From Rallus limicola (lineage: Eukaryota; Chordata; Aves; Gruiformes; Rallidae), in the NCBI GenBank assembly GCA_022605955.1, contig JAKCOZ010000105.1, forward strand, positions 248,001-312,000: a stretch of 64,000 nucleotides of DNA. The letters run 5' to 3'. Positions 1 through 46,078 of this stretch are shown in pieces (positions within the stretch are counted from its first letter, which is position 1; the number at the start of each line of letters is the position of its first letter). Position numbers and translations under genes: made by a program. The notes beneath the pieces are model-generated. The model had not been told where the DNA came from. It ran no database searches and was given only the letters and a program-made list of their open reading frames with translations.

Positions 1-182
1 ATGAAGTAATAACCTCAAGATAATTGTATTGTTTATTACTGCGTATAAATATCTGTAACCCCCTCTCCCTTAGCGCGGCGTAGTGTGACTTCGGTCCCTG
101 CCCGCCCGGCGCCGCTGTTTTCTTTCTCTGATTAAACTGCTGCTATTACATTCAAGAGTGAGTGTAAATTTTGTCGATAACA
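1..182 (+). mobile_element. 3' part of an ERV1-type LTR (window-edge copy)
   Basis: These 182 bases match positions 10021-10202, the end of the complete 559 bp LTR described below. They hold the TATA box (44-50), the R-U5 segment (75-182) and the terminal GATAACA. The TTTTC duplication follows at 183-187. The rest of this LTR and its provirus lie left of the window, so at least one more ERV copy exists upstream. Confidence 0.9.
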
Positions 183-1368: not shown

Positions 1369-1570
1369 CTGCTACACAGGAAGAACAACCACCGAAACGT
1401 GGCTGTATCGTGGCTGTATTGTGGCCATTGAACGTCCATACTCCGAGTGAGATGAGAAGCATGTTCCCAAGGAGGATCCTGCGCAGGAGGAAAAAGCAGC
1501 ACGGAGTGATGAGGAATTGCAGACAAATAGCCCGGGCCACAGCACAGACAGCTGTAGACTTTGAGGACAG

Positions 1571-3810
1571 AGAGAGGGGGCTGACGAGGGAGAGAGGGGG
1601 CTGACGAGGGAGAGAGGGGGCTGACGAGGGAGAGAGGGGGCTGACGAGGGAGAGAGGGGGCTGACGAGGGAGAGAGGGGGCTGACGAGGGAGAGAGGGGG
1701 CTGACGAGGGAGAGAGGGGGCTGACGAGGGAGAGAGGGGGCTGACGAGGGAGAGAGGGGGCTGACGAGGGAGAGAGGGGGCTGACGAGGGAGAGAGGGGG
1801 CTGACGAGGGAGAGAGGGGGCTGACGAGGGAGAGAGGGGGCTGACGAGGGAGAGAGGGGGCTGACGAGGGAGAGAGGGGGCTGACGAGGGAGAGAGGGGG
1901 CTGACGAGGGAGAGAGGGGGCTGACGAGGGAGAGAGGGGGCTGACGAGGGAGAGAGGGGGCTGACGAGGGAGAGAGGGGGCTGACGAGGGAGAGAGGGGG
2001 CTGACGAGGGAGAGAGGGGGCTGACGAGGGAGAGAGGGGGCTGACGAGGGAGAGAGGGGGCTGACGAGGGAGAGAGGGGGCTGACGAGGGAGAGAGGGGG
2101 CTGACGAGGGAGAGAGGGGGCTGACGAGGGAGAGAGGGGGCTGACGAGGGAGAGAGGGGGCTGACGAGGGAGAGAGGGGGCTGACGAGGGAGAGAGGGGG
2201 CTGACGAGGGAGAGAGGGGGCTGACGAGGGAGAGAGGGGGCTGACGAGGGAGAGAGGGGGCTGACGAGGGAGAGAGGGGGCTGACGAGGGAGAGAGGGGG
2301 CTGACGAGGGAGAGAGGGGGCTGACGAGGGAGAGAGGGGGCTGACGAGGGAGAGAGGGGGCTGACGAGGGAGAGAGGGGGCTGACGAGGGAGAGAGGGGG
2401 CTGACGAGGGAGAGAGGGGGCTGACGAGGGAGAGAGGGGGCTGACGAGGGAGAGAGGGGGCTGACGAGGGAGAGAGGGGGCTGACGAGGGAGAGAGGGGG
2501 CTGACGAGGGAGAGAGGGGGCTGACGAGGGAGAGAGGGGGCTGACGAGGGAGAGAGGGGGCTGACGAGGGAGAGAGGGGGCTGACGAGGGAGAGAGGGGG
2601 CTGACGAGGGAGAGAGGGGGCTGACGAGGGAGAGAGGGGGCTGACGAGGGAGAGAGGGGGCTGACGAGGGAGAGAGGGGGCTGACGAGGGAGAGAGGGGG
2701 CTGACGAGGGAGAGAGGGGGCTGACGAGGGAGAGAGGGGGCTGACGAGGGAGAGAGGGGGCTGACGAGGGAGAGAGGGGGCTGACGAGGGAGAGAGGGGG
2801 CTGACGAGGGAGAGAGGGGGCTGACGAGGGAGAGAGGGGGCTGACGAGGGAGAGAGGGGGCTGACGAGGGAGAGAGGGGGCTGACGAGGGAGAGAGGGGG
2901 CTGACGAGGGAGAGAGGGGGCTGACGAGGGAGAGAGGGGGCTGACGAGGGAGAGAGGGGGCTGACGAGGGAGAGAGGGGGCTGACGAGGGAGAGAGGGGG
3001 CTGACGAGGGAGAGAGGGGGCTGACGAGGGAGAGAGGGGGCTGACGAGGGAGAGAGGGGGCTGACGAGGGAGAGAGGGGGCTGACGAGGGAGAGAGGGGG
3101 CTGACGAGGGAGAGAGGGGGCTGACGAGGGAGAGAGGGGGCTGACGAGGGAGAGAGGGGGCTGACGAGGGAGAGAGGGGGCTGACGAGGGAGAGAGGGGG
3201 CTGACGAGGGAGAGAGGGGGCTGACGAGGGAGAGAGGGGGCTGACGAGGGAGAGAGGGGGCTGACGAGGGAGAGAGGGGGCTGACGAGGGAGAGAGGGGG
3301 CTGACGAGGGAGAGAGGGGGCTGACGAGGGAGAGAGGGGGCTGACGAGGGAGAGAGGGGGCTGACGAGGGAGAGAGGGGGCTGACGAGGGAGAGAGGGGG
3401 CTGACGAGGGAGAGAGGGGGCTGACGAGGGAGAGAGGGGGCTGACGAGGGAGAGAGGGGGCTGACGAGGGAGAGAGGGGGCTGACGAGGGAGAGAGGGGG
3501 CTGACGAGGGAGAGAGGGGGCTGACGAGGGAGAGAGGGGGCTGACGAGGGAGAGAGGGGGCTGACGAGGGAGAGAGGGGGCTGACGAGGGAGAGAGGGGG
3601 CTGACGAGGGAGAGAGGGGGCTGACGAGGGAGAGAGGGGGCTGACGAGGGAGAGAGGGGGCTGACGAGGGAGAGAGGGGGCTGACGAGGGAGAGAGGGGG
3701 CTGACGAGGGAGAGAGGGGGCTGACGAGGGAGAGAGGGGGCTGACGAGGGAGAGAGGGGGCTGACGAGGGAGAGAGGGGGCTGACGAGGGAGAGAGGGGG
3801 CTGACGAGGG
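1571..3810 (+). repeat. 20 bp G-rich minisatellite, about 112 copies
   Basis: The unit GAGGGAGAGAGGGGGCTGAC is repeated head to tail with no visible variation over about 2.24 kb. Unit A3 has about 24 copies of the same repeat. A2, A4 and A5 have GGGA/GGGAGG simple repeat at the same place, and B units have (GA)n. The plus strand is strongly G-rich. The minus strand is open in long frames only because the repeat has no stop, so the 800-900 residue Pro/Ser-rich translations are not genes. Confidence 0.97.
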
Positions 3811-3829
3811 AGGGAGAGAGGGAGTGACC

Positions 3830-5580: not shown

Positions 5581-5705
5581 ACAGCCCTGGAAGTCGCAGC
5601 GTGGGAAAGGAAATTTAAACTCCTCAATTCCTGTACGTTCCAGAAAGCCCAATACCCATAATGGGAATGAATCCAGTCTCTAAATTGAAGACATACATTC
5701 TTTTC

Positions 5706-5880
5706 TGTTATCGACAAAATTTACACTCACTCTTGAATGTAATAGCAGCAGTTTAATCAGAGAAAGAAAACAGCGGCGCCGGGCGGGCAGGGACCGAAGT
5801 CACACTACGCCGCTGTTTTCTTTCTCTGATTAAACTGCTGCTATTACATTCAAGAGTGAGTGTAAATTTTGTCGATAACA
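5706..5880. repeat. Fold-back R-U5 palindrome at the ERV left end (copy 1)
   Basis: 5706-5813 is the reverse complement of LTR positions 10095-10202. 5808-5880 is the forward copy of the end of the LTR. The arms overlap by CGCCGC (5808-5813), a microhomology. The outer edge of the inverted arm is TGTTATCGAC, the exact complement of the LTR end GTCGATAACA, so both ends of the integrated element are U5 ends. The inner edge of the arm matches a point 31 bases after the first T of the TATA box, where transcription should start, so the arm is the length expected of strong-stop DNA. Confidence 0.93.
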
Positions 5881-5884
5881 ATTT

Positions 5885-5902
5885 TGGTGCCGTGACTCGG
5901 AT
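5885..5902 (+). other. Primer binding site, tRNA-His type
   Basis: TGGTGCCGTGACTCGGAT lies four bases (ATTT) after the end of U5. The TGG plus acceptor-stem complement fits tRNA-His, as used by HERV-H-like elements. Identical sites follow the fold-back in the other copies (13775-13792, 25629-25646, 37072-37089). Confidence 0.85.
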
Positions 5903-6020
5903 CTGGTAACTGGCCCCAGACCTCTGATCAGGAGGCGCCCCCCTCTAATTTTGAGGGGCCTGAGAAGGGTCCTCTGTGTGGTCAGTCCCAGATTTTCCGA
6001 ACGGCAGAGAAAGAAAACTA

Positions 6021-6366
6021 GGTTCCCGTGCACAAGGGGAATTTGATTCCAGTGCACGAAGATCTCGAGATAAAATTTGGTTCCCGTGCACAAGGGGAAT
6101 TCGATTCCAGTGCACGAAGTTCTCGAGAAGAATTTTTTGGTTTCCGTGCACAAGGGGAATTTGATTCCAGTGCATGAAGTTCTCAAGAAAAATTTGGTTC
6201 CCGTGCACAAAGGGAATTTGATTCCAGTGCACGAAGTTCTCGAGAAAATTTCTTTTGGTTCCCGTGCACAAGGGGAATTTGATTCCGGTGCATGAAGTTC
6301 TCGAGAAAAATTTGGTTCCCGTGCACAAGGGGAATTTGATTCCAGTGCACGAAGATCTCGAACGAA
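6021..6366 (+). repeat. Six tandem leader repeats with GTGCAC palindromes
   Basis: Six imperfect repeats of about 57 bp lie between the primer site and the splice donor. Each begins GGTTCCCGTGCACAAGGGG or a close variant. TTCCC and GGGAA can pair around a 9 nt loop containing GTGCAC. Repeat 3 changes one C to T, which keeps a G-U pair. A second GTGCAC or GTGCAT and usually a TTCTCGAGAA palindrome follow in each repeat. Ten GTGCAC hexamers are present in all. Corresponding arrays: 13911-14256, 25765-26110, 37208-37553. The position matches where retroviral dimerisation and packaging elements lie; the function is inferred. Confidence 0.9.
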
Positions 6367-6442
6367 GAAAGCCCGACTGGAGACAGCGAGCTTTGTGGAC
6401 CTCCAGTACGTATCTCTCGATTCCGGTTTTCCAAAGGTACTG

Positions 6443-6448
6443 GTAAGT
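6443..6448 (+). promoter_or_regulatory. Candidate major splice donor
   Basis: CTG|GTAAGT lies 21 bases upstream of the gag ATG, a strong donor in the usual retroviral leader position. It is preserved in all four copies. Confidence 0.65.
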
Positions 6449-6468
6449 CATTGCGATTCCGTTCGAGT

Positions 6469-7113
6469 ATGGGGCAAGAAGGAAGCAAACAGAGAAAAAT
6501 TCCTAGCCCAGATATTCTATCAGAAAGTCTTTTGGGACTCATGATCCGACACTGGGGAGAATCTGCGCCCCGGCGGAGAAAATCTAAAGAGAAAATGATC
6601 TATTATTGTGTTTATATATGGGGAGAAAAAGAAATTGGGAAGAACATTTTTTGGCCAAAATTTGGGTCCTTCGAGGACTGGGTATGTCAAGCCCTAAATT
6701 TTTATGTAAATAATAAAACCCCATATAGTCAAGAAGAAAGTCAATATGCATTCTTATGGATTCTAGCGTCCAAAAGCGAAAAGATAGAAGCATGGAATTT
6801 TCTAAATAAATTGCATCAGAAAACACATTGGGCCACTCAATCTTTAGTAGATTATTTTGAAACCAAGTTTACTACTATTGGAGTATATACACTAGCTAAA
6901 CGAATAATTATGGGATGTAACATATCAGAAGACAAAATATCAGTAATTGGAACAAAAGGTGAGCCCTTTCAAGTCCCTGTCGTTAAAATGTTCAAATTAT
7001 TAGCCCCAATCGACAGGTAAAAGGGGATCTCCTACTTGTGCCAGAAGCAGAGTACAACTTACTAGGAAAAGATCTTATGACGAGTCTACGAATCGGGTTA
7101 TTTATTAATAGCC
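6469..7113 (+). pseudogene. gag matrix fused to protease remnant (copy 1)
   Basis: The reading frame opens at ATG 6469 with MGQ, a potential N-myristoylation start typical of gammaretroviral matrix, and stays open to TAA 7018-7020 (183 residues). About residues 1-120 look like matrix. The sequence then passes without a stop into a protease-like stretch (GEPFQVPV), and after the stop the same frame continues with LLVPEAEYNLLGKDL, a conserved protease C-terminal block. Capsid, nucleocapsid and the catalytic DTG are missing, so an internal deletion joined matrix to the middle of protease in frame. The same frame is open in all four copies. No enzymatic activity is expected. Confidence 0.8.
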
Positions 7114-7165
7114 AGTAAAGAAGAAGAAGTGGTGCAAAACGAGAGTATAAGGCTCTTAAATTTTT

Positions 7166-7914
7166 TTGGGTAAACAGGGACTAAAAGTTTCAAGATCAAA
7201 GCTTCAATTTACAGAGGAACAAGTTAAATACCTGGGGCATTGGATAACAGGAGGGCAAAAGAAGTTAGATCCAGAGCGAATAAAAGGCATTTTGTCTCTT
7301 CCTGTCCCCAAGAACAAAAGACAAGTGCGACAAATGTTAGGTTTAATAGGATATTGCTGACAATGGATTGAAAATTATAGCACACAAACGAAATTTCTAT
7401 ATGAAAAATTAAAGAGGGAAGGACATTTCGAATGGAATGAAAAAGATAACCAAAGTTGGGAACAGTTGCTACAAAGCCTAGTAGAAGCCCCGGTATTAAG
7501 TTTACCGGATGTTAGGAAACCATTTCAATTATTTACAGCTATTAACGAAAATACAGCTTATGGAATCCTAACGCAAGAAGTTGCTGGATTTTGAAAACCT
7601 ATACTATTCTAAACAAAAGGAGAGAACAACTCAGAAAGAAAGGGATAATAACCCAAAGACCACCACTAGATCTGGCAATACACCAGGTACGACCTGGAGA
7701 TCAAGTATTGATAAAATCATAGAAAGAAGTTAACTTAACCCCTCAATGGGAGGGACCTTATCTTGTTTTACTCACAACAGATTCTGCAGTACGAACAAAA
7801 GAAAAGGGGTGGACACACGCTACTAGGATAAAGAAGATAACCTCACCGAATAAGTGGACATCTACATGTCACCCAGACTCCCTGAAACTTACCCTGAGAC
7901 GGCAAAACGAATGA
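7166..7914 (+). pseudogene. pol 3' remnant: RT thumb and integrase C-terminus (copy 1)
   Basis: 7166-7600 translates to an RT thumb/connection block (LQFTEEQVKYLGHW, MLGLIGYC) with a TGA at 7358-7360. A deletion then joins it to the integrase C-terminal domain (HQVRPGDQVLIKS, WEGPYLVLL) at about 7619-7914, which has an internal TAG. The RT fingers and palm, RNase H, and the zinc-binding and catalytic core of integrase are absent. The last stop, TGA, abuts the ATG of the env remnant at 7915. Confidence 0.8.
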
Positions 7915-9621
7915 ATGAATATTGAAGATCGACTTAGACATTGGTTTGGACTACCAGCTCATGAATCTATAAGGAAAGTATCATATGTCTCTTGGGTACA
8001 GGGGAGGATACCATATATATAGGGGAGACAGGGGGCCTATATAGAGCCCAAGAAGAGGGTCGGACTTTGGCTTTATGCTGTGAAATAGAAACTGAAATTC
8101 CTCTCGAGCCTACCTTACCGAGGCGAATACCCTGCTTGAAGCACCCTTTATTAAGCCACAAGGCCTGGGTTCAAAGCATTGGTTATAATTGTAAGCAAAT
8201 TTGGAATTGTATTTCCCGTTTTAGACAAGCTTACTGTATACGCTGTAGACAACACCGAGATCGTAGGTCAGGGCAAGAGAATGTACTTATGCTCTTTTGC
8301 GGATGGGAACTATTAATTCCATATTGGTGGGAATTCTATGAGACTGATCGAAACAAAGTAATTAATAAATGCAGAAAACGGTTTAAGTGGAAACAAAAAA
8401 CTCTAGATCAAAGACCCTCCTATGCCTAAAGGAGTAGAGAAGCAAAACCGCCCCTGAAGACACTGAGCTGTTGACCAGAAGACAAATTAACCGGTTGTCC
8501 TTTGCCCAGGACAGACCGTGGGAAAGGCAAAGCCAGTAAAACATGTGGGGCAGACGGTTTTACCTCCTCCTTAATATTCTTTGATCCCCTGTGGGGATGG
8601 CCATCAGCCATTTGAATGGGTCTTGAAAGGATCTGGAAATGGTTCAGAAAACAGAATTGTACAGACGGTCATTACTTCAGGAATACCATACTTTTTAACT
8701 ACTACGTGTTCTCTAGTCAATCAAATCAATAGCCGAGACAAAATACCAGTTACAAACACAGGGTCAGGAACCCCAATTGTTAAAAGAAAATGTGATGAAA
8801 GAATACCCTTTTATGGATGCCCTAGCTCTAATCCAGGAAAAGGGTATTGTAAACTATAGCATCAGCCTGAATTCCCACCGAGCAAAACCAGTTTCTATCC
8901 GTAAAATGGTATTCCAATGGAAGTTTAAGTTTAATGGTAATGAAACATAATACACGAACCTTGAATTTTGTGTCCACGTTACAATAGTGCCACGAATAAT
9001 GATACAGTCCTCAGCCAAAGTAATGGGAGCTCAAGAAAATGACTTCTCCAGATACAAAGGAGAGCCTATAACAGCTCTTACTGTAGCTACTCTCGTAAGT
9101 CTCAGTATAGTAGGAGTAAAAATAGGAACTACCTCCATAACACCGCAACAAAAAGGACTGCCGGCATTACAGGCTGCTGACGACAAAGATTTAGCGCAAT
9201 TGTAAAAATCAATCTCGTATCTGGAGAAATCATTGACTTCCCTATCAGAAGTAGTTCTGCAAAATCGAAGAGGATTAGATCTGGTGTTCTTAAGAGAAGG
9301 AGGACTATGTGTCGCTCTGGGAGAGGAATGTTGCTTCTACGCAGATCATACAGGAATAGTCCGTGATTCCTTAGCTAAAGGGACAGGTTAGAACAAAGAA
9401 AAAGAGAACGAGAAGCTCAAGCTCCTTGGTACGAAAACTGGTTTAATTGGTCACCTTGGCTGACGACTTTATTATCCACGATCACGGGGCCTATGATTAT
9501 TTTCATGCTGGTGATAACTTTAGGACCTTGTAGTCTTAATAAGTTAGTGGCAGCAATAAAACGACGAATAGATCGAATCGAAATCCTTACTCTCCGAACC
9601 ATAGAATCAGCAAACGGGTAA
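7915..9621 (+). pseudogene. env remnant, surface and transmembrane parts (copy 1)
   Basis: Starts at ATG 7915 directly after the pol stop. The surface part is broken by many stops; 8584-8859 is an open piece with a cysteine pattern like class I surface proteins (FYGCP). The transmembrane part (about 8987-9621) has a hydrophobic fusion-peptide-like stretch, a stop at 9203-9205, then a heptad region, a class I immunosuppressive-type segment (LQNRRGLD) followed by a CX6CC motif, and a membrane span. In this copy a 4 bp deletion after 9380 shifts the frame after CX6CC. Not functional. Confidence 0.8.
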
Positions 9622-9624
9622 TTC

Positions 9625-9640
9625 AAAAGAAAAGGGGTGG
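9625..9640 (+). other. Polypurine tract (plus-strand primer), copy 1
   Basis: A purine-rich run, AAAAGAAAAGGGGTGG, three bases before the 3' LTR. It is the expected site of plus-strand priming and is conserved in all four copies. Confidence 0.75.
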
Positions 9641-9643
9641 AAT

Positions 9644-10202
9644 TGTTACTAACGTTTGCTGATTCCTTGTAATTATTTGATAAATGTATAACAGAAACTA
9701 AATGGAAGCTTAAGAAACCTTCATGCTTGCTTAAACAAATAGAATGCTTATATGTTATCCGCAAAAATCCTTACGTCTAGTGTATATCCTGTTATGAACG
9801 AGTTTCAAAAGAACAGAACTGCGATAAAACAAGAACAAGTTGCTTTTGTGACAGGACGGAGCCCACGATTATGAAAGAGAGGTACAAGACCCTAATCTCA
9901 AGAACACATCAATGGGCCAGAGTTAACCACCGTGAAGAAGATTGAGAAACTGGTTAATAATTGGAGAAGAAAAATGAAGAAAATCGACATATATGGACTA
10001 TAGCAATTGTTAGTCGAAAGATGAAGTAATAACCTCAAGATAATTGTATTGTTTATTACTGCGTATAAATATCTGTAACCCCCTCTCCCTTAGCGCGGCG
10101 TAGTGTGACTTCGGTCCCTGCCCGCCCGGCGCCGCTGTTTTCTTTCTCTGATTAAACTGCTGCTATTACATTCAAGAGTGAGTGTAAATTTTGTCGATAA
10201 CA
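9644..10202 (+). mobile_element. 3' LTR of ERV copy 1 (559 bp)
   Basis: Begins TGTTACTAACG and ends GTCGATAACA, with short inverted ends. TATA box TATAAAT at 10064-10070, predicted start of R near 10095, polyadenylation signal ATTAAA at 10151-10156. That gives U3 about 451 bp and R-U5 108 bp. Followed by TTTTC at 10203-10207. Because the neighbouring ERVs have no 5' U3, this LTR is positioned to drive transcription into unit A2. Confidence 0.93.
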
Positions 10203-10239
10203 TTTTCCAAAATGGGGAATTGTTGTATAAAAAACAAAT

Positions 10240-11388
10240 GATACAAGAAATTCCCCCAGAAAGAAGGGGTGCAGTGGGCCCTGCCCTATGGGAAACCGAC
10301 ATCCCAGGAAAGCCTACATTAGCACAGCCAGTGACTGCTGAATGGAAAGAAAGTGCAAAACCAGTTAGGATCAAACAATACCCAATTACACCTCAGGCAA
10401 AACAGGGAATTAAAAGATTGCTCCTGTAATTTCTGAAATAGAAGATTTTTCAAGTGAGTCAATCAGAATATAACACACCGTTTTTACCAGCACGACAGCC
10501 AAACGGTGAGCACAGATTGGTACAGGACCTAAGAGCTATTAATCAAATTGTGAAAGACATACACCCAGTAGCGACAATTCCTTGGACTGTGTTCACTGCT
10601 CTGGAGGAAAAATGATCAATGGCTTACAGTGCTTGATTTAAAAGACGCTCTCTTTTGCACACCCCTGGAGAAAAGAGTCATCAATTATTTGCTCTTCAGT
10701 GGGAGAGTCCACAAACTGGGACACGGCTACCCCAAGGATTTAAAAAAGCTCTGGCCCAACTGTGGCAGCCAACCCGCAAAGGAACTGGAGATCTGAACAA
10801 ACAAGGAGGCGGGGACGCCATGACCAGAACAGCTGCTCTTGCAATAGGCGGCCTGGATACGGCTAACCACTGAACTTTGAAACTTCTGGAGACTTCATAG
10901 GTACGAGGTATCCAAGAAGAAATCTCAAACAGCAAGCCAAACTGTAAGATATTTGGGCTTGGAGATTTCACAAAGGCAACAAAGGCTGGGGACAGACCCA
11001 AAAGAGGCAATTTGTGCTATTCCAGAGCCTGGGGCTGGACAGGAACTGAGAGCATTTCTGGGAATGGCAGGACGGTGTGGGCTCTGGATCACGCAGAACC
11101 CCCAAATCACTGCATGAAGCCCAGAAGTCTATCCCTTTGATATGTAATAGACACCAACAAAAGGCTTTTGGGAAACTTGAGATAACCTTGATGTTCTTGC
11201 CTCTTGCCTGCAACCAGTGGCAAGAACCATCACGGTCCTTGTTCCACACACAGCAGTCACAGTGTTGGAGCAAAAGGGGACGCACCAGCTATCCCCTACA
11301 AGGATGATGAAATACCAGGCAGTTCTTACACAACAGAATGATGTAACCTTGAAAACAACTCACCTTATGAATCCTGCCGTTTTCTGGA
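10240..11388 (+). pseudogene. Class I pol fragment, dead (A2)
   Basis: Near-identical to 220-1368, including the destroyed YVDD region. It shares the extra TGA with A1 (10612-10614) but has T at 10708 where A1 has A (688). Confidence 0.8.
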
Positions 11389-13595: not shown

Positions 13596-13770
13596 TGTTA
13601 TCGACAAAATTTACACTCACTCTTGAATGTAATAGCAGCAGTTTAATCAGAGAAAGAAAACAGCGGCGCCGGGCGGGCAGGGACCGAAGTCACACTACGC
13701 CGCTGTTTTCTTTCTCTGATTAAACTGCTGCTATTACATTCAAGAGTGAGTGTAAATTTTGTCGATAACA
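13596..13770. repeat. Fold-back R-U5 palindrome (copy 2)
   Basis: Same as 5706-5880, including the CGCCGC overlap. Confidence 0.93.
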
Positions 13771-14358
13771 ATTTTGGTGCCGTGACTCGGATCTGGTAAC
13801 TGGCCCCAGACCTCTGATCAGGAGGCGCCCCCCTCTAATTTTGAGGGGCCTGAGAAGGGTCCTCTGTGTGGTCAGTCCCAGATTTTCCGAACGGCGGAGA
13901 AAGAAAACTAGGTTCCCGTGCACAAGGGGAATTTGATTCCAGTGCACGAAGATCTCGAGATAAAATTTGGTTCCCGTGCACAAGGGGAATTCGATTCCAG
14001 TGCACGAAGTTCTCGAGAAGAATTTTTTGGTTTCCGTGCACAAGGGGAATTTGATTCCAGTGCATGAAGTTCTCGAGAAAAATTTGGTTCCCGTGCACAA
14101 AGGGAATTTGATTCCAGTGCACGAAGTTCTCGAGAAAATTTCTTTTGGTTCCCGTGCACAAGGGGAATTTGATTCCGGTGCATGAAGTTCTCGAGAAAAA
14201 TTTGGTTCCCGTGCACAAGGGGAATTTGATTCCAGTGCACGAAGATCTCGAACGAAGAAAGCCCGACTGGAGACAGCGAGCTTTGTGGACCTCCAGTACG
14301 TATCTCTCGATTCCGGTTTTCCAAAGGTACTGGTAAGTCATTGCGATTCCGTTCGAGT

Positions 14359-15003
14359 ATGGGGCAAGAAGGAAGCAAACAGAGAAAAATTCCTAGCCCA
14401 GATATTCTATCAGAAAGTCTTTTGGGACTCATGATCCGACACTGGGGAGAATCTGCGCCCCGGCGGAGAAAATCTAAAGAGAAAATGATCTATTATTGTG
14501 TTTATATATGGGGAGAAAAAGAAATTGGGAAGAACATTTTTTGGCCAAAATTTGGGTCCTTCGAGGACTGGGTATGTCAAGCCCTAAATTTTTATGTAAA
14601 TAATAAAACCCCATATAGTCAAGAAGAAAGTCAATATGCATTCTTATGGATTCTAGCGTCCAAAAGCGAAAAGATAGAAGCATGGAATTTTCTAAATAAA
14701 TTGCATCAGAAAACACATTGGGCCACTCAATCTTTAGTAGATTATTTTGAAACCAAGTTTACTACTATTGGAGTATATACACTAGCTAAACGAATAATTA
14801 TGGGATGTAACATATCAGAAGACAAAATATCAGTAATTGGAACAAAAGGTGAGCCCTTTCAAGTCCCTGTCGTTAAAATGTTCAAATTATTAGCCCCAAT
14901 CGACAGGTAAAAGGGGATCTCCTACTTGTGCCAGAAGCAGAGTACAACTTACTAGGAAAAGATCTTATGACGAGTCTACGAATCGGGTTATTTATTAATA
15001 GCC
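14359..15003 (+). pseudogene. gag matrix/protease fusion remnant (copy 2)
   Basis: Open from ATG 14359 to TAA 14908-14910, same protein as copy 1, with the protease C-terminal block following the stop. Confidence 0.8.
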
Positions 15004-15804
15004 AGTAAAGAAGAAGAAGTGGTGCAAAACGAGAGTATAAGGCTCTTAAATTTTTTTGGGTAAACAGGGACTAAAAGTTTCAAGATCAAAGCTTCAATTT
15101 ACAGAGGAACAAGTTAAATACCTGGGGCATTGGATAACAGGAGGGCAAAAGAAGTTAGATCCAGAGTGAATAAAAGGCATTTTGTCTCTTCCTGTCCCCA
15201 AGAACAAAAGACAAGTGCGACAAATGTTAGGTTTAATAGGATATTGCTGACAATGGATTGAAAATTATAGCACACAAACGAAATTTCTATATGAAAAATT
15301 AAAGAGGGAAGGACATTTCGAATGGAATGAAAAAGATAACCAAAGTTGGGAACAGTTGCTACAAAGCCTAGTAGAAGCCCCGGTATTAAGTTTACCGGAT
15401 GTTAGGAAACCATTTCAATTATTTACAGCTATTAACGAAAATACAGCTTATGGAATCCTAACGCAAGAAGTTGCTGGATTTTGAAAACCTATACTATTCT
15501 AAACAAAAGGAGAGAACAACTCAGAAAGAAAGGGATAACAACCCAAAGACCACCACTAGATCTGGCAATACACCAGGTACGACCTGGAGATCAAGTATTG
15601 ATAAAATCATAGAAAGAAGTTAACTTAACCCCTCAATGGGAGGGACCTTATCTTGTTTTACTCACAACAGATTCTGCAGTACGAACAAAAGAAAAGGGGT
15701 GGACACACGCTACTAGGATAAAGAAGATAACCTCACCGAATAAGTGGACATCTACATGTCACCCAGACTCCCTGAAACTTACCCTGAGACGGCAAAACGA
15801 ATGA

Positions 15805-17515
15805 ATGAATATTGAAGATCGACTTAGACATTGGTTTGGACTACCAGCTCATGAATCTATAAGGAAAGTATCATATGTCTCTTGGGTACAGGGGAGGATA
15901 CCATATATATAGGGGAGACAGGGGGCCTATATAGAGCCCAAGAAGAGGGTCGGACTTTGGCTTTATGCTGTGAAATAGAAACTGAAATTCCTCTCGAGCC
16001 TACCTTACCGAGGCGAATACCCTGCTTGAAGCACCCTTTATTAAGCCACAAGGCCTGGGTTCAAAGCATTGGTTATAATTGTAAGCAAATTTGGAATTGT
16101 ATTTCCCGTTTTAGACAAGCTTACTGTATACGCTGTAGACAACACCGAGATCGTAGGTCAGGGCAAGAGAATGTACTTATGCTCTTTTGCGGATGGGAAC
16201 TATTAATTCCATATTGGTGGGAATTCTATGAGACTGATCGAAACAAAGTAATTAATAAATGCAGAAAACGGTTTAAGTGGAAACAAAAAACTCTAGATCA
16301 AAGACCCTCCTATGCCTAAAGGAGTAGAGAAGCAAAACCGCCCCTGAAGACACTGAGCTGTTGACCAGAAGACAAATTAACCGGTTGTCCTTTGCCCAGG
16401 ACAGACCGTGGGAAAGGCAAAGCCAGTAAAACATGTGGGGCAGACGGTTTTACCTCCTCCTTAATATTCTTTGATCCCCTGTGGGGATGGCCATCAGCCA
16501 TTTGAATGGGTCTTGAAAGGATCTGGAAATGGTTCAGAAAACAGAATTGTACAGACGGTCATTACTTCAGGAATACCATACTTTTTAACTACTACGTGTT
16601 CTCTAGTCAATCAAATCAATAGCCGAGACAAAATACCAGTTACAAACACAGGGTCAGGAACCCCAATTGTTAAAAGAAAATGTGATGAAAGAATACCCTT
16701 TTATGGATGCCCTAGCTCTAATCCAGGAAAAGGGTATTGTAAACTATAGCATCAGCCTGAATTCCCACCGAGCAAAACCAGTTTCTATCCGTAAAATGGT
16801 ATTCCAATGGAAGTTTAAGTTTAATGGTAATGAAACATAATACACGAACCTTGAATTTTGTGTCCACGTTACAATAGTGCCACGAATAATGATACAGTCC
16901 TCAGCCAAAGTAATGGGAGCTCAAGAAAATGACTTCTCCAGATACAAAGGAGAGCCTATAACAGCTCTTACTGTAGCTACTCTCGTAAGTCTCAGTATAG
17001 TAGGAGTAAAAATAGGAACTACCTCCATAACACTGCAACAAAAAGGACTGCCGGCATTACAGGCTGCTGACGACAAAGATTTAGCGCAATTGTAAAAATC
17101 AATCTCGTATCTGGAGAAATCATTGACTTCCCTATCAGAAGTAGTTCTGCAAAATCGAAGAGGATTAGATCTGGTGTTCTTAAGAGAAGGAGGACTATGT
17201 GTCGCTCTGGGAGAGGAATGTTGCTTCTACGCAGATCATACAGGAATAGTCCGTGATTCCTTAGCTAAAGTAAGGGACAGGTTAGAACAAAGAAAAAGAG
17301 AACGAGAAGCTCAAGCTCCTTGGTACGAAAACTGGTTTAATTGGTCACCTTGGCTGACGACTTTATTATCCACGATCACGGGGCCTATGATTATTTTCAT
17401 GCTGGTGATAACTTTAGGACCTTGTAGTCTTAATAAGTTAGTGGCAGCAATAAAACGACGAATAGATCGAATCGAAATCCTTACTCTCCGAACCATAGAA
17501 TCAGCAAACGGGTAA
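15805..17515 (+). pseudogene. env remnant with open transmembrane fragment (copy 2)
   Basis: Surface part broken as in copy 1. After the stop at 17093-17095 the transmembrane subunit is open for about 140 codons to 17515, covering the heptad region, immunosuppressive-type segment, CX6CC, membrane span and a short basic tail. There is no in-frame ATG at its start, so independent translation is doubtful. Confidence 0.8.
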
Positions 17516-17537
17516 TTCAAAAGAAAAGGGGTGGAAT

Positions 17538-18096
17538 TGTTACTAACGTTTGCTGATTCCTTGTAATTATTTGATAAATGTATAACAGAAACTAAATGGA
17601 AGCTTAAGAAACCTTCATGCTTGCTTAAACAAATAGAATGCTTATATGTTATCCGCAAAAATCCTTACGTCTAGTGTATATCCTGTTATGAACGAGTTTC
17701 AAAAGAACAGAACTGCGATAAAACAAGAACAAGTTGCTTTTGTGACAGGACGGAGCCCACGATTATGAAAGAGAGGTACAAGACCCTAATCTCAAGAACA
17801 CATCAATGGGCCAGAGTTAACCACCGTGAAGAAGATTGAGAAACTGGTTAATAATTGGAGAAGAAAAATGAAGAAAATCGACATATATGGACTATAGCAA
17901 TTGTTAGTCGAAAGATGAAGTAATAACCTCAAGATAATTGTATTGTTTATTACTGCGTATAAATATCTGTAACCCCCTCTCCCTTAGCGCGGCGTAGTGT
18001 GACTTCGGTCCCTGCCCGCCCGGCGCCGCTGTTTTCTTTCTCTGATTAAACTGCTGCTATTACATTCAAGAGTGAGTGTAAATTTTGTCGATAACA
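17538..18096 (+). mobile_element. 3' LTR of ERV copy 2
   Basis: 559 bp, TGTTAC...GATAACA, with TATA and ATTAAA signals as in copy 1. It faces unit B1. Confidence 0.92.
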
Positions 18097-21671: not shown

Positions 21672-21676
21672 TTTTC
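21672..21676. other. Empty ERV insertion site (B1/A3)
   Basis: GACATACATTC, one TTTTC, then CAAAATGG. This is the pre-insertion state of the site that is duplicated around each ERV copy. Confidence 0.92.
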
Positions 21677-23058: not shown

Positions 23059-23550
23059 GAGAGAGGGGGCTGACGAGGGAGAGAGGGGGCTGACGAGGGA
23101 GAGAGGGGGCTGACGAGGGAGAGAGGGGGCTGACGAGGGAGAGAGGGGGCTGACGAGGGAGAGAGGGGGCTGACGAGGGAGAGAGGGGGCTGACGAGGGA
23201 GAGAGGGGGCTGACGAGGGAGAGAGGGGGCTGACGAGGGAGAGAGGGGGCTGACGAGGGAGAGAGGGGGCTGACGAGGGAGAGAGGGGGCTGACGAGGGA
23301 GAGAGGGGGCTGACGAGGGAGAGAGGGGGCTGACGAGGGAGAGAGGGGGCTGACGAGGGAGAGAGGGGGCTGACGAGGGAGAGAGGGGGCTGACGAGGGA
23401 GAGAGGGGGCTGACGAGGGAGAGAGGGGGCTGACGAGGGAGAGAGGGGGCTGACGAGGGAGAGAGGGGGCTGACGAGGGAGAGAGGGGGCTGACGAGGGA
23501 GAGAGGGGGCTGACGAGGGAGAGAGGGGGCTGACGAGGGAGAGAGCTGAC
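23059..23550 (+). repeat. 20 bp G-rich minisatellite, about 24 copies
   Basis: Same unit as 1571-3810, uniform throughout, ending in a short GA-rich remnant. Confidence 0.96.
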
Positions 23551-24403
23551 AGAGAGAGGGAGAGAGGGAGTGACCAAGGAAAAAAGTCCAGAAGGATATA
23601 GCAGAGAAAACGAGAATTTAAATGCTGGGAATAAGGAGCCAGGCAGAAACAAATTTGGAAAAGAAACAGATTAAAACACCCAAAAGAACCCCCACAAAGC
23701 CCCAAAACCAAAGAAGCCACAAAAAAAAAACAATTAAACACACCCATAATCCTCAGACCCTACCAGAAAAGCCACGGAACCCTGTCACTCTACAAGCAAT
23801 TAGGAAAACTGTAAGCTGACCTGGAAGATACTACAACTTTGATCCCCATTACTTTATAAGGAAAGCCTAAAACTCTCGGAAAATCGGAATTACAAGGGCA
23901 AGTATAAGGGGAGCCACAGGAAAAGGGGAAAACTGGCCCTTCTGACAGCCCTGGAATTCGCAGCGTGGAAAAAAAATGAAAAGAACCCCATCCAACAGCT
24001 GAGCCCATCCAGACCAGAAAAAAAAAAAAAATCTGAAAACCCCACAAGCCACAGAAACCCCTAAAACCCAATTAAAAAACAAAAACAAAACCCCACAAAA
24101 CCACAAAATAACCACCAAACCAAAAAAAGCCAACAAACCTGGAAACCCCAGACATCACAAAAACCACAGCAGGAGCCCCAAGCCCTCCTCTGCCAAAACA
24201 ACCCCACGAGTCACAAAACACACAAGCCGACAGTAAAAAGAGACACAAACCCCTGACACTCCCCGCAGCCCCAAAAACACGCCAGCCCCAAACAGCTTCC
24301 CCTATCCAACTCAAACAACCCCACAAGCCCGCACTCACCCCGCTAACCCCAGGCCCAACGCAAAGCCCCACAGAACCCCGATAACCCCAGAACCCAGCGA
24401 AAA

Positions 24404-25449: not shown

Positions 25450-25624
25450 TGTTATCGACAAAATTTACACTCACTCTTGAATGTAATAGCAGCAGTTTAA
25501 TCAGAGAAAGAAAACAGCGGCGCCGGGCGGGCAGGGACCGAAGTCACACTACGCCGCTGTTTTCTTTCTCTGATTAAACTGCTGCTATTACATTCAAGAG
25601 TGAGTGTAAATTTTGTCGATAACA
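25450..25624. repeat. Fold-back R-U5 palindrome (copy 3)
   Basis: Same as 5706-5880. Confidence 0.93.
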
Positions 25625-26212
25625 ATTTTGGTGCCGTGACTCGGATCTGGTAACTGGCCCCAGACCTCTGATCAGGAGGCGCCCCCCTCTAATTTTGAGG
25701 GGCCTGAGAAGGGTCCTCTGTGTGGTCAGTCCCAGATTTTCCGAACGGCGGAGAAAGAAAACTAGGTTCCCGTGCACAAGGGGAATTTGATTCCAGTGCA
25801 CGAAGATCTCGAGATAAAATTTGGTTCCCGTGCACAAGGGGAATTCGATTCCAGTGCACGAAGTTCTCGAGAAGAATTTTTTGGTTTCCGTGCACAAGGG
25901 GAATTTGATTCCAGTGCATGAAGTTCTCGAGAAAAATTTGGTTCCCGTGCACAAAGGGAATTTGATTCCAGTGCACGAAGTTCTCGAGAAAATTTCTTTT
26001 GGTTCCCGTGCACAAGGGGAATTTGATTCCGGTGCATGAAGTTCTCGAGAAAAATTTGGTTCCCGTGCACAAGGGGAATTTGATTCCAGTGCACGAAGAT
26101 CTCGAACGAAGAAAGCCCGACTGGAGACAGCGAGCTTTGTGGACCTCCAGTACGTATCTCTCGATTCCAGTTTTCCAAAGGTACTGGTAAGTCATTGCGA
26201 TTCCGTTCGAGT

Positions 26213-26857
26213 ATGGGGCAAGAAGGAAGCAAACAGAGAAAAATTCCTAGCCCAGATATTCTATCAGAAAGTCTTTTGGGACTCATGATCCGACACTGGG
26301 GAGAATCTGCGCCCCGGCGGAGAAAATCTAAAGAGAAAATGATCTATTATTGTGTTTATATATGGGGAGAAAAAGAAATTGGGAAGAACATTTTTTGGCC
26401 AAAATTTGGGTCCTTCGAGGACTGGGTATGTCAAGCCCTAAATTTTTATGTAAATAATAAAACCCCATATAGTCAAGAAGAAAGTCAATATGCATTCTTA
26501 TGGATTCTAGCGTCCAAAAGCGAAAAGATAGAAGCATGGAATTTTCTAAATAAATTGCATCAGAAAACACATTGGGCCACTCAATCTTTAGTAGATTATT
26601 TTGAAACCAAGTTTACTACTATTGGAGTATATACACTAGCTAAACGAATAATTATGGGATGTAACATATCAGAAGACAAAATATCAGTAATTGGAACAAA
26701 AGGTGAGCCCTTTCAAGTCCCTGTCGTTAAAATGTTCAAATTATTAGCCCCAATCGACAGGTAAAAGGGGATCTCCTACTTGTGCCAGAAGCAGAGTACA
26801 ACTTACTAGGAAAAGATCTTATGACGAGTCTACGAATCGGGTTATTTATTAATAGCC
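26213..26857 (+). pseudogene. gag matrix/protease fusion remnant (copy 3)
   Basis: Open from ATG 26213 to TAA 26762-26764, same protein as copies 1 and 2. Confidence 0.8.
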
Positions 26858-27658
26858 AGTAAAGAAGAAGAAGTGGTGCAAAACGAGAGTATAAGGCTCT
26901 TAAATTTTTTTGGGTAAACAGGGACTAAAAGTTTCAAGATCAAAGCTTCAATTTACAGAGGAACAAGTTAAATACCTGGGGCATTGGATAACAGGAGGGC
27001 AAAAGAAGTTAGATCCAGAGCGAATAAAAGGCATTTTGTCTCTTCCTGTCCCCAAGAACAAAAGACAAGTGCGACAAATGTTAGGTTTAATAGGATATTG
27101 CTGACAATGGATTGAAAATTATAGCACACAAACGAAATTTCTATATGAAAAATTAAAGAGGGAAGGACATTTCGAATGGAATGAAAAAGATAACCAAAGT
27201 TGGGAACAGTTGCTACAAAGCCTAGTAGAAGCCCCGGTATTAAGTTTACCGGATGTTAGGAAACCATTTCAATTATTTACAGCTATTAACGAAAATACAG
27301 CTTATGGAATCCTAACGCAAGAAGTTGCTGGATTTTGAAAACCTATACTATTCTAAACAAAAGGAGAGAACAACTCAGAAAGAAAGGGATAATAACCCAA
27401 AGACCACCACTAGATCTGGCAATACACCAGGTACGACCTGGAGATCAAGTATTGATAAAATCATAGAAAGAAGTTAACTTAACCCCTCAATGGGAGGGAC
27501 CTTATCTTGTTTTACTCACAACAGATTCTGCAGTACGAACAAAAGAAAAGGGGTGGACACACGCTACTAGGATAAAGAAGATAACCTCACCGAATAAGTG
27601 GACATCTACATGTCACCCAGACTCCCTGAAACTTACCCTGAGACGGCAAAACGAATGA

Positions 27659-29369
27659 ATGAATATTGAAGATCGACTTAGACATTGGTTTGGACTACCA
27701 GCTCATGAATCTATAAGGAAAGTATCATATGTCTCTTGGGTACAGGGGAGGATACCATATATATAGGGGAGACAGGGGGCCTATATAGAGCCCAAGAAGA
27801 GGGTCGGACTTTGGCTTTATGCTGTGAAATAGAAACTGAAATTCCTCTCGAGCCTACCTTACCGAGGCGAATACCCTGCTTGAAGCACCCTTTATTAAGC
27901 CACAAGGCCTGGGTTCAAAGCATTGGTTATAATTGTAAGCAAATTTGGAATTGTATTTCCCGTTTTAGACAAGCTTACTGTATACGCTGTAGACAACACC
28001 GAGATCGTAGGTCAGGGCAAGAGAATGTACTTATGCTCTTTTGCGGATGGGAACTATTAATTCCATATTGGTGGGAATTCTATGAGACTGATCGAAACAA
28101 AGTAATTAATAAATGCAGAAAACGGTTTAAGTGGAAACAAAAAACTCTAGATCAAAGACCCTCCTATGCCTAAAGGAGTAGAGAAGCAAAACCGCCCCTG
28201 AAGACACTGAGCTGTTGACCAGAAGACAAATTAACCGGTTGTCCTTTGCCCAGGACAGACCGTGGGAAAGGCAAAGCCAGTAAAACATGTGGGGCAGACG
28301 GTTTTACCTCCTCCTTAATATTCTTTGATCCCCTGTGGGGATGGCCATCAGCCATTTGAATGGGTCTTGAAAGGATCTGGAAATGGTTCAGAAAACAGAA
28401 TTGTACAGACGGTCATTACTTCAGGAATACCATACTTTTTAACTACTACGTGTTCTCTAGTCAATCAAATCAATAGCCGAGACAAAATACCAGTTACAAA
28501 CACAGGGTCAGGAACCCCAATTGTTAAAAGAAAATGTGATGAAAGAATACCCTTTTATGGATGCCCTAGCTCTAATCCAGGAAAAGGGTATTGTAAACTA
28601 TAGCATCAGCCTGAATTCCCACCGAGCAAAACCAGTTTCTATCCGTAAAATGGTATTCCAATGGAAGTTTAAGTTTAATGGTAATGAAACATAATACACG
28701 AACCTTGAATTTTGTGTCCACGTTACAATAGTGCCACGAATAATGATACAGTCCTCAGCCAAAGTAATGGGAGCTCAAGAAAATGACTTCTCCAGATACA
28801 AAGGAGAGCCTATAACAGCTCTTACTGTAGCTACTCTCGTAAGTCTCAGTATAGTAGGAGTAAAAATAGGAACTACCTCCATAACACTGCAACAAAAAGG
28901 ACTGCCGGCATTACAGGCTGCTGACGACAAAGATTTAGCGCAATTGTAAAAATCAATCTCGTATCTGGAGAAATCATTGACTTCCCTATCAGAAGTAGTT
29001 CTGCAAAATCGAAGAGGATTAGATCTGGTGTTCTTAAGAGAAGGAGGACTATGTGTCGCTCTGGGAGAGGAATGTTGCTTCTACGCAGATCATACAGGAA
29101 TAGTCCGTGATTCCTTAGCTAAAGTAAGGGACAGGTTAGAACAAAGAAAAAGAGAACGAGAAGCTCAAGCTCCTTGGTACGAAAACTGGTTTAATTGGTC
29201 ACCTTGGCTGACGACTTTATTATCCACGATCACGGGGCCTATGATTATTTTCATGCTGGTGATAACTTTAGGACCTTGTAGTCTTAATAAGTTAGTGGCA
29301 GCAATAAAACGACGAATAGATCGAATCGAAATCCTTACTCTCCGAACCATAGAATCAGCAAACGGGTAA
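27659..29369 (+). pseudogene. env remnant with open transmembrane fragment (copy 3)
   Basis: As copy 2. The transmembrane fragment is open from 28950 to 29369, with the CX6CC motif and membrane span intact. Confidence 0.8.
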
Positions 29370-29391
29370 TTCAAAAGAAAAGGGGTGGAAT

Positions 29392-29950
29392 TGTTACTAA
29401 CGTTTGCTGATTCCTTGTAATTATTTGATAAATGTATAACAGAAACTAAATGGAAGCTTAAGAAACCTTCATGCTTGCTTAAACAAATAGAATGCTTATA
29501 TGTTATCCGCAAAAATCCTTACGTCTAGTGTATATCCTGTTATGAACGAGTTTCAAAAGAACAGAACTGCGATAAAACAAGAACAAGTTGCTTTTGTGAC
29601 AGGACGGAGCCCACGATTATGAAAGAGAGGTACAAGACCCTAATCTCAAGAACACATCAATGGGCCAGAGTTAACCACCGTGAAGAAGATTGAGAAACTG
29701 GTTAATAATTGGAGAAGAAAAATGAAGAAAATCGACATATATGGACTATAGCAATTGTTAGTCGAAAGATGAAGTAATAACCTCAAGATAATTGTATTGT
29801 TTATTACTGCGTATAAATATCTGTAACCCCCTCTCCCTTAGCGCGGCGTAGTGTGACTTCGGTCCCTGCCCGCCCGGCGCCGCTGTTTTCTTTCTCTGAT
29901 TAAACTGCTGCTATTACATTCAAGAGTGAGTGTAAATTTTGTCGATAACA
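29392..29950 (+). mobile_element. 3' LTR of ERV copy 3
   Basis: 559 bp, same signals as copy 1. It faces unit B2. Confidence 0.92.
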
Positions 29951-33521: not shown

Positions 33522-33526
33522 TTTTC
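33522..33526. other. Empty ERV insertion site (B2/A4)
   Basis: Single TTTTC between ACATACATTC and CAAAATGG. Confidence 0.92.
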
Positions 33527-36892: not shown

Positions 36893-37067
36893 TGTTATCG
36901 ACAAAATTTACACTCACTCTTGAATGTAATAGCAGCAGTTTAATCAGAGAAAGAAAACAGCGGCGCCGGGCGGGCAGGGACCGAAGTCACACTACGCCGC
37001 TGTTTTCTTTCTCTGATTAAACTGCTGCTATTACATTCAAGAGTGAGTGTAAATTTTGTCGATAACA
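36893..37067. repeat. Fold-back R-U5 palindrome (copy 4)
   Basis: Same as 5706-5880. Confidence 0.93.
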
Positions 37068-37655
37068 ATTTTGGTGCCGTGACTCGGATCTGGTAACTGG
37101 CCCCAGACCTCTGATCAGGAGGCGCCCCCCTCTAATTTTGAGGGGCCTGAGAAGGGTCCTCTGTGTGGTCAGTCCCAGATTTTCCGAACGGCGGAGAAAG
37201 AAAACTAGGTTCCCGTGCACAAGGGGAATTTGATTCCAGTGCACGAAGATCTCGAGATAAAATTTGGTTCCCGTGCACAAGGGGAATTCGATTCCAGTGC
37301 ACGAAGTTCTCGAGAAGAATTTTTTGGTTTCCGTGCACAAGGGGAATTTGATTCCAGTGCATGAAGTTCTCGAGAAAAATTTGGTTCCCGTGCACAAAGG
37401 GAATTTGATTCCAGTGCACGAAGTTCTCGAGAAAATTTCTTTTGGTTCCCGTGCACAAGGGGAATTTGATTCCGGTGCATGAAGTTCTCGAGAAAAATTT
37501 GGTTCCCGTGCACAAGGGGAATTTGATTCCAGTGCACGAAGATCTCGAACGAAGAAAGCCCGACTGGAGACAGCGAGCTTTGTGGACCTCCAGTACGTAT
37601 CTCTCGATTCCGGTTTTCCAAAGGTACTGGTAAGTCATTGCGATTCCGTTCGAGT

Positions 37656-38300
37656 ATGGGGCAAGAAGGAAGCAAACAGAGAAAAATTCCTAGCCCAGAT
37701 ATTCTATCAGAAAGTCTTTTGGGACTCATGATCCGACACTGGGGAGAATCTGCGCCCCGGCGGAGAAAATCTAAAGAGAAAATGATCTATTATTGTGTTT
37801 ATATATGGGGAGAAAAAGAAATTGGGAAGAACATTTTTTGGCCAAAATTTGGGTCCTTCGAGGACTGGGTATGTCAAGCCCTAAATTTTTATGTAAATAA
37901 TAAAACCCCATATAGTCAAGAAGAAAGTCAATATGCATTCTTATGGATTCTAGCGTCCAAAAGCGAAAAGATAGAAGCATGGAATTTTCTAAATAAATTG
38001 CATCAGAAAACACATTGGGCCACTCAATCTTTAGTAGATTATTTTGAAACCAAGTTTACTACTATTGGAGTATATACACTAGCTAAACGAATAATTATGG
38101 GATGTAACATATCAGAAGACAAAATATCAGTAATTGGAACAAAAGGTGAGCCCTTTCAAGTCCCTGTCGTTAAAATGTTCAAATTATTAGCCCCAATCGA
38201 CAGGTAAAAGGGGATCTCCTACTTGTGCCAGAAGCAGAGTACAACTTACTAGGAAAAGATCTTATGACGAGTCTACGAATCGGGTTATTTATTAATAGCC
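37656..38300 (+). pseudogene. gag matrix/protease fusion remnant (copy 4)
   Basis: Open from ATG 37656 to TAA 38205-38207, same protein as the other copies. Confidence 0.8.
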
Positions 38301-39101
38301 AGTAAAGAAGAAGAAGTGGTGCAAAACGAGAGTATAAGGCTCTTAAATTTTTTTGGGTAAACAGGGACTAAAAGTTTCAAGATCAAAGCTTCAATTTACA
38401 GAGGAACAAGTTAAATACCTGGGGCATTGGATAACAGGAGGGCAAAAGAAGTTAGATCCAGAGCGAATAAAAGGCATTTTGTCTCTTCCTGTCCCCAAGA
38501 ACAAAAGACAAGTGCGACAAATGTTAGGTTTAATAGGATATTGCTGACAATGGATTGAAAATTATAGCACACAAACGAAATTTCTATATGAAAAATTAAA
38601 GAGGGAAGGACATTTCGAATGGAATGAAAAAGATAACCAAAGTTGGGAACAGTTGCTACAAAGCCTAGTAGAAGCCCCGGTATTAAGTTTACCGGATGTT
38701 AGGAAACCATTTCAATTATTTACAGCTATTAACGAAAATACAGCTTATGGAATCCTAACGCAAGAAGTTGCTGGATTTTGAAAACCTATACTATTCTAAA
38801 CAAAAGGAGAGAACAACTCAGAAAGAAAGGGATAATAACCCAAAGACCACCACTAGATCTGGCAATACACCAGGTACGACCTGGAGATCAAGTATTGATA
38901 AAATCATAGAAAGAAGTTAACTTAACCCCTCAATGGGAGGGACCTTATCTTGTTTTACTCACAACAGATTCTGCAGTACGAACAAAAGAAAAGGGGTGGA
39001 CACACGCTACTAGGATAAAGAAGATAACCTCACCGAATAAGTGGACATCTACATGTCACCCAGACTCCCTGAAACTTACCCTGAGACGGCAAAACGAATG
39101 A

Positions 39102-40821: not shown

Positions 40822-40843
40822 TTCAAAAGAAAAGGGGTGGAAT

Positions 40844-41402
40844 TGTTACTAACGTTTGCTGATTCCTTGTAATTATTTGATAAATGTATAACAGAAACTA
40901 AATGGAAGCTTAAGAAACCTTCATGCTTGCTTAAACAAATAGAATGCTTATATGTTATCCGCAAAAATCCTTACGTCTAGTGTATATCCTGTTATGAACG
41001 AGTTTCAAAAGAACAGAACTGCGATAAAACAAGAACAAGTTGCTTTTGTGACAGGACGGAGCCCACGATTATGAAAGAGAGGTACAAGACCCTAATCTCA
41101 AGAACACATCAATGGGCCAGAGTTAACCACCGTGAAGAAGATTGAGAAACTGGTTAATAATTGGAGAAGAAAAATGAAGAAAATCGACATATATGGACTA
41201 TAGCAATTGTTAGTCGAAAGATGAAGTAATAACCTCAAGATAATTGTATTGTTTATTACTGAGTATAAATATCTGTAACCCCCTCTCCCTTAGCGCGGCG
41301 TAGTGTGACTTCGGTCCCTGCCCGCCCGGCGCCGCTGTTTTCTTTCTCTAATTAAACTGCTGCTATTACATTCAAGAGTGAGTGTAAATTTTGTCGATAA
41401 CA
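40844..41402 (+). mobile_element. 3' LTR of ERV copy 4
   Basis: 559 bp. Two visible differences from copy 1: A for C just before the TATA box (41262) and A for G just before ATTAAA (41350). The TATA and polyadenylation signals are intact. Confidence 0.92.
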
Positions 41403-44945: not shown

Positions 44946-44950
44946 TTTTC
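44946..44950. other. Empty ERV insertion site (B3/A5)
   Basis: Single TTTTC between ACATACATTC and CAAAATGG. Confidence 0.92.
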
Positions 44951-46053: not shown

Positions 46054-46060
46054 GTCTTTT

Positions 46061-46078
46061 TGGCGCCCAACGTGGGGC
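46061..46078 (+). other. Primer binding site, tRNA-Lys1,2 type
   Basis: TGGCGCCCAACGTGGGGC, seven bases after the 5' LTR. This is the site complementary to tRNA-Lys1,2. Confidence 0.88.

Follow-up and report, generated by a model that had tools for sequence, protein, structure and literature searches.

How can an endogenous retrovirus (ERV) come to rest in a genome with a U5 terminus at each of its outer ends? The question is raised by an element at 5706-10202 (4,497 bp) of the window, by which we mean the whole analysed stretch of 64,000 nucleotides of Rallus limicola DNA. Its 5' end is inverted and its 3' LTR is complete. Its features, all in coordinates of the window and with their basis in brackets, are as follows.

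5701-5705, plus strand: left copy of the target duplication, TTTTC (sequence)
5706-5813, minus strand: inverted R-U5 arm, whose outer end is the U5 terminus TGTTATCGAC (108/108 identity to the reverse complement of 10095-10202)
5808-5813, plus strand: six-base overlap CGCCGC common to both arms, the putative self-priming stem (sequence, fold prediction)
5808-5880, plus strand: forward partial R-U5, without U3 (73/73 identical to 10130-10202)
5885-5902, plus strand: primer binding site TGGTGCCGTGACTCGGAT, with a four-nucleotide spacer, ATTT, before it (same site behind ordinary 5' LTRs of the family)
6014-6361, plus strand: 57-bp tandem repeats of the leader (sequence)
6987-7911, plus strand: pol remnants in several frames, namely protease end, reverse transcriptase (RT) end, RNase H and MLV-type integrase C-terminus (Pfam, all below curated cut-offs)
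8951-9621, plus strand: env remnants (TLV_coat) in more than one frame (Pfam, above cut-off)
9625-9643, plus strand: polypurine tract and AAT preceding U3 (sequence; the same or nearly the same ahead of family 3' LTRs)
9644-10202, plus strand: complete 3' LTR, 559 bp (full-length LTR alignments)
10064-10071, plus strand: TATA box TATAAATA, with the cap predicted at about 10094-10095 (motif match)
10095-10100, plus strand: GCGGCG at the predicted start of R (sequence, fold prediction)
10130-10135, plus strand: internal CGCCGC, whose complement is the putative self-priming template (sequence, fold prediction)
10151-10156, plus strand: ATTAAA, likely poly(A) signal (sequence)
10203-10207, plus strand: right copy of the target duplication, TTTTC (sequence)

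The initial annotation of this DNA had described an inverted 108-bp R-U5 arm that turns through a 6-bp CGCCGC into forward R-U5 and a primer site, with the U5 terminus at both outer ends and TTTTC flanking the whole, and the alignment of the arm with the 3' LTR bears out this architecture base for base. The outer ends read TG...CA (TGTTATCGAC...GTCGATAACA), as expected of integrase trimming, and both are U5 termini, where one U3 and one U5 end would be usual. Since the left end lacks U3, it carries no LTR promoter. In the other three copies within the window, the inverted arm is identical at 108, 108, and 107 of 108 positions, the forward R-U5 matches at 73, 73, 73, and 72 of 73 bases across the four copies, and all four have the same junction. 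When the window was compared with itself (blastn, word size 11, E ≤1e-3), these four fold-backs alone emerged as inverted repeats of 30 bp or more whose centres lie less than 1 kb apart.

On its sequence, the pol-deleted element is by descent a member of a class I (gamma-type) ERV family. The LTR, primer site and leader are common to other proviruses, and gamma-type pol and env domains are present (TLV_coat at E 1.5e-32 and 8e-19, above the Pfam cut-off; MLVIN_C at E 1.9e-06, just below its cut-off); a normal 5' LTR is absent. We take the primer binding site to be of the His type; it differs by one base in two of the ordinary 5' LTRs (L023 and L035). The gag that the initial annotation had placed behind the primer site was not recovered: between the primer site region and the polypurine tract, 27 plus-strand stop-to-stop frames reach 40 aa or more, and Pfam detected a gag domain in none of them.

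The window as a whole is an array of related units, some of which hold the element and three of which hold its target unfilled.

13596-18096, plus strand: second copy, with ends and flanks as in the first (sequence)
25450-29950, plus strand: third copy (sequence)
36893-41402, plus strand: fourth copy (sequence)
1-182, plus strand: fifth copy, 3' end only, truncated by the window edge (nearest fold-back 5' end leftward at G000:C105:243842)
21672-21676, plus strand: empty target site with one TTTTC (sequence)
33522-33526, plus strand: empty target site with one TTTTC (sequence)
44946-44950, plus strand: empty target site with one TTTTC (sequence)

The unfilled target reads ...ACATACATTC TTTTC CAAAATGG..., with no base lost or added. 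The left flank of the element matches the empty sites at 97.6-99.0% over 206 bases and the right flank at 98.8-99.4% over 498 bases; further left, filled and empty units diverge (174-177 mismatches in 500 bp). Because the empty sites hold a single TTTTC, the element and its inverted arm entered together, in one integration that cleanly duplicated 5 bp.

The array has features of its own. A 20-bp satellite is present in 112 copies in one unit (1570-3816) and in 25 copies in another (23059-23568), and a short GAGG array lies in three other units, at 11607, 34926, and 53226. The integration target (10203-10430 and the other right flanks) may be an RT relic of another class I ERV; it resembles murine leukaemia virus RT weakly (E 0.085) and has no Pfam match. 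A second provirus at 45464-52334 is apparently young and has two identical 590-bp LTRs and CTGGG on both sides; it contains open frames of 635 and 1064 aa, the latter of which matches RT, RNase H and protease (Pfam, two 300-aa pieces), and its primer site is presumably of the Lys type.

Whether such ends typify the family or mark a single accident was addressed by a genome search with a U5-primer-leader probe, which returned 31 places, all of which were scored and classified. Ordinary full 5' LTRs stood at 24 of the 31, and fold-back 5' ends at seven (five on contig C105 and two on C2), a count that depends on the leader probe and that leaderless fold-backs would escape. All seven fold-backs share one target site and aligned over the same 206-base left flank. 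Over about 1.3 kb beyond that flank, the three fold-back loci outside the window agree with the window copies at 99.3-99.8%, and both right flanks on C2 also match the window copies. The normal 5' LTRs, by comparison, have 18 distinct 12-base flanks as judged by eye, or 17 if those on C31 and C312 are the same. One fold-back event set against 17-18 normal flanks means that about 1 in 18-19 detectable integrations has a fold-back end. The fold-back is thus, on these alignments, a single event amplified by duplication and not a provirus family. The initial annotation had already ascribed its copies to one event followed by amplification, and the shared target site agrees; its count of four proved too low, given the fifth copy at the window edge and the seven fold-back ends genome-wide, and its idea of a provirus family with this end structure gave way to one aberrant event among relatives with the normal 5' LTRs for which it had proposed a search.

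How the family normally integrates was read from 18 rows, comprising 13 two-LTR proviruses and five solo LTRs. Exact 5-bp target duplications were present in 15 of these, representing 11 distinct flanks. The duplications on C41 and C15, which are alike in flank, match at four of five bases, and that on C53 does not match. A U3 probe gave 40 scored matches out of 81 candidates; five of them lie in or just beside the window array, and the other 35 were all read. Outside the fold-back copies, LTR identity among family members is about 95-99%, and the two LTRs of a normal copy differ at 0-8 of about 560 bases in 12 of 13 cases and at 22 on C17 (gap columns uncounted). Such small differences mark a young family. 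Five short normal proviruses were sampled, and all five align in one piece, over a stretch of 1.4-1.8 kb, with the pol-deleted body in the window. By this common deletion, the loss of pol is older than the fold-back event, and the fold-back arose within a non-autonomous subfamily. Searches of viral contigs with the U5 pattern or with a piece of env found no relatives.

One further locus was considered as a second fold-back and rejected. This is the family member on C20 with a single 3' LTR (L046), in which the beginning of U3 runs straight into internal sequence: on the reverse complement, at 6974-7020, the first ~42 bases of U3 are fused to the internal region at the position corresponding to window 8308. 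Its 5' flank is CTAAT and its 3' flank ATTTG (L032), with no matching duplication; it is possibly another aberrant reverse-transcription product, or the result of a later deletion. Separately, insertions on C505 (L043-L045), C312 (L051), and C31 (L077) lie a few bases apart in copies of one host sequence (TGTCACTTTGG / CTCT), which may reflect preferred targeting, or else a host repeat that was hit more than once.

What made this one event different can be sought at the turn between the two arms. The 3' end of minus-strand strong-stop DNA is the complement of the cap, and the usual spacing between a TATA box and the cap allows that position to be predicted. The only 8/8 match to TATAWAWR in the LTR starts at 10064, 31 bases ahead of 10095 (four more sites match at 7/8), and the inner limit of the arm, 10095, agrees with the cap at about 10094-10095 predicted from this TATA box, as the initial annotation had proposed. 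A10092 is a possible alternative start, and strong-stop DNA ending there lacks the junction register. When all 35 candidate ends from 10080 to 10114 were compared, 10095 gave the longest self-match, of six bases, and its partner at 10130-10135 is where the forward sequence restarts. An overlap of at least six bases occurs in 30 of the 20,449 possible inverted junctions of 10060-10202, and the sole non-palindromic six-base pairing within that interval is the one used at the junction. The R'-U5 and the primer site follow the turn, although the primer site could also derive from the minus strand.

In the predicted fold of the 108-base strong-stop DNA ending at 10095, the last six bases pair with the internal hexamer in both the minimum-energy and the centroid structure, and the 3' base is paired in the junction register with a probability of 0.85 (spacer included). 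The junction register is not the main 3' pairing of any of eleven other ends (10090-10094 and 10096-10101): for an end at 10094 the stem persists but the last base is left unpaired, and at 10093 and 10097 the 3' base is also well paired, in other registers. The overall fold is ordinary (z −1.28; 21 of 200 shuffles fold as well; frequency of the minimum-energy structure 0.011). Among the shuffle controls, 4/500 carry an internal complement to the last six bases and 53/500 have the 3' base paired at a probability of at least 0.5.

This pairing is not general in the family. Only three of the 22 normal LTRs that could be parsed (L079 and L081 could not) carry both hexamers, so the junction pairing belongs to a sublineage; in the commonest normal type, GCGGCAG, another register is favoured in most cases. 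The first bases of R vary among the 22 parsed 5' LTRs (GCGGCG, GCGGCAG, GCGGTG, GCGGAG, and ACGGAG), and the rest of the 50 bases shown varies less. Given this variation, LTR lineages may differ in their potential for self-priming.

The anatomy, the empty sites, the duplication and the occurrence of one such event among many normal ones are direct observations. To account for them, we consider it probable that, at the second strand transfer, self-primed strong-stop DNA took the place of its plus-strand counterpart, and that two U5 ends were joined by integrase. This is in outline what the initial annotation had proposed, and it is supported by the empty sites, the 5-bp duplications of the family, the register of the predicted fold and the one integration site shared by seven copies. 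The fact that the event is single weighs against it, as does the C53 copy without a matching duplication. Also on that side are the possible alternative start at A10092, the ordinary overall fold, the well-paired 3' bases at other ends and in shuffled sequences, and the confinement of the pairing to a sublineage.

In this scheme, whose order of RT steps is presumed, a non-autonomous, pol-deleted class I ERV member would have been reverse-transcribed, presumably with proteins supplied in trans. Its minus-strand strong-stop DNA, complete to the putative cap (~10095), would fold back so that the 3'-terminal CGCCGC paired with GCGGCG some 30 bases inside, and RT would extend the folded strand to its own 5' end and then into the tRNA primer. 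A single strand would then contain inverted U5-R, a loop, R'-U5 and the primer site. Since the folded-back molecule cannot also yield a full minus strand, that strand would have to be made, as usual, from another strong-stop DNA, which the second packaged RNA presumably supplied. Where plus-strand strong-stop DNA normally anneals, the full minus strand would instead receive the primer-site end of the folded strand; extension of both 3' ends, with displacement opening the hairpin, would give linear DNA with a U5 end on each side. Integrase would presumably then join both U5 ends to the target, which lay within one unit of the array, at positions staggered by 5 bp, and the filled unit would be amplified later. 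That a U5 end should stand in for a U3 end is plausible on two counts: the extended U3 and U5 ends of this LTR, with the trimmed bases included, share AATTGTTA, and a review mentions, in its available text, a proposal that Rous sarcoma virus integrase sets stricter requirements for U5 than for U3 (PMC12789967).

Other routes to the same structure differ mainly in when, and between which molecules, the strands were joined. In an intermolecular switch, a minus strand copying plus-strand strong-stop DNA to complete the left LTR would jump, with its 3' GCGGCG, to the 3'-terminal CGCCGC of a free strong-stop DNA and copy on to the U5 end. The junction, U5 outer end and integration would be identical, and annealing of strong-stop DNA within or between molecules is discussed as a source of aberrant products in the available text of PMC4668388. 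Such a switch, however, requires a pause in mid-R and an extra molecule of free strong-stop DNA, and pairing within the molecule is predicted to dominate for the end at 10095 (P 0.85, as above); we regard it as unlikely. Autointegration, or end joining of two viral DNAs, can likewise invert pieces of an LTR, but here the inner junction lies inside R and not at an LTR end, contains neither a U3 terminus nor host bases, and coincides with six bases of homology at the predicted cap. Nor would autointegration be expected to yield a linear molecule ending in U5 on both sides, and we give this route almost no weight.

A change after integration would be easiest to imagine in duplicated arrays, where rearrangement is common and where these loci sit: a normal provirus might have had its 5' LTR rearranged by host repair or template switching. 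Against this, the outer end in all four window copies meets the 5-bp duplication precisely at the U5 terminus, not a base is gained or lost at the empty sites, and a later event would have had to delete U3 and restore the terminus with single-base accuracy, so that we consider it very improbable. That the arm is a separate later insertion with its own duplication, a possibility raised in the initial annotation, is excluded, for the duplication flanks the whole element; because it encloses the arm, the arm belonged to the DNA that was joined. The analysis drew on an assembled genome, in which a false palindrome from a hairpin read might be suspected. Yet the same structure and flanks recur in seven copies, spread over two contigs, and a read-level hairpin would neither create a target duplication nor stop at the U5 terminus, which leaves an artefact of assembly or sequencing extremely improbable. 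The preferred reading, fold-back and self-priming of a single strong-stop DNA followed by second strand transfer, is the one compared below with known systems.

If this reading holds, self-primed strong-stop DNA is not always a dead end. It is quite probable that here it replaced the polypurine-primed plus-strand strong-stop DNA, provided two U5 att ends, was integrated with the normal stagger, and entered the germ line, where it is now present in at least seven copies. The sequence record would then mean that a reaction called 'abortive' in the test tube can probably be rescued by second strand transfer into a heritable provirus. It further indicates that two U5 ends can be paired in vivo by an integrase of this type, and it yields a search rule by which the frequency of such events could be counted in assembled genomes: an inverted U5-R, a turn at the cap, a primer site, and two U5 ends enclosed by a duplication.

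HIV-1 minus-strand strong-stop DNA that primes itself is said to have been described by Guo in 1997 and by Driscoll and Hughes in 2000, both cited in PMC3098202. None of the open-licence literature matches listed, which do not extend to older subscription papers, described an integrated fold-back strong-stop provirus in its available text. Work from the 1980s on defective avian retrovirus DNA may bear on the fold-back end. The self-priming half of the scheme is already known from its in vitro parallel in HIV-1, where self-priming of strong-stop DNA is described and nucleocapsid reduces it (PMC4668388, PMC3098202, available text). In the accessible parts of the papers cited here, we found no experiment on second strand transfer by self-primed strong-stop DNA or on the use of two U5 ends.

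Compared with the ordinary proviruses of its own family, the element has the same LTR, primer site, polypurine tract and 5-bp duplication, as well as the pol deletion of the five short ones sampled, whereas those proviruses possess a complete 5' U3-R-U5 and U3/U5 outer ends. The palindromic LTR-LTR junctions of 2-LTR circles (PMC1180852, as far as its available text goes) are likewise palindromes of att sequences, but there two LTR ends meet in a circle, and here U5-R folds back in a linear, integrated element. An abnormal pair of ends was also integrated in HIV-1 with one unusable end, for which the accessible text of PMC5041404 describes irregular flanks, integrase having joined the good end and host enzymes, apparently, the second one. 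Those integrations carry large duplications or deletions; the exact 5-bp duplication here argues, in contrast, that integrase joined both ends. The nearest likeness is to the self-primed strong-stop DNA of HIV-1 in vitro, in which, according to the available text of PMC4668388, pairing of the 3' CCC with an internal GGG is proposed, followed by extension as far as the RNA primer's 5' end (one product was isolated). In both systems the 3' end pairs internally, RT extends it to the 5' end and into the primer, and the reaction depends on the 5' end of the RNA. The HIV-1 reaction, however, was abortive in vitro, whereas that in Rallus limicola was apparently completed, integrated and inherited.
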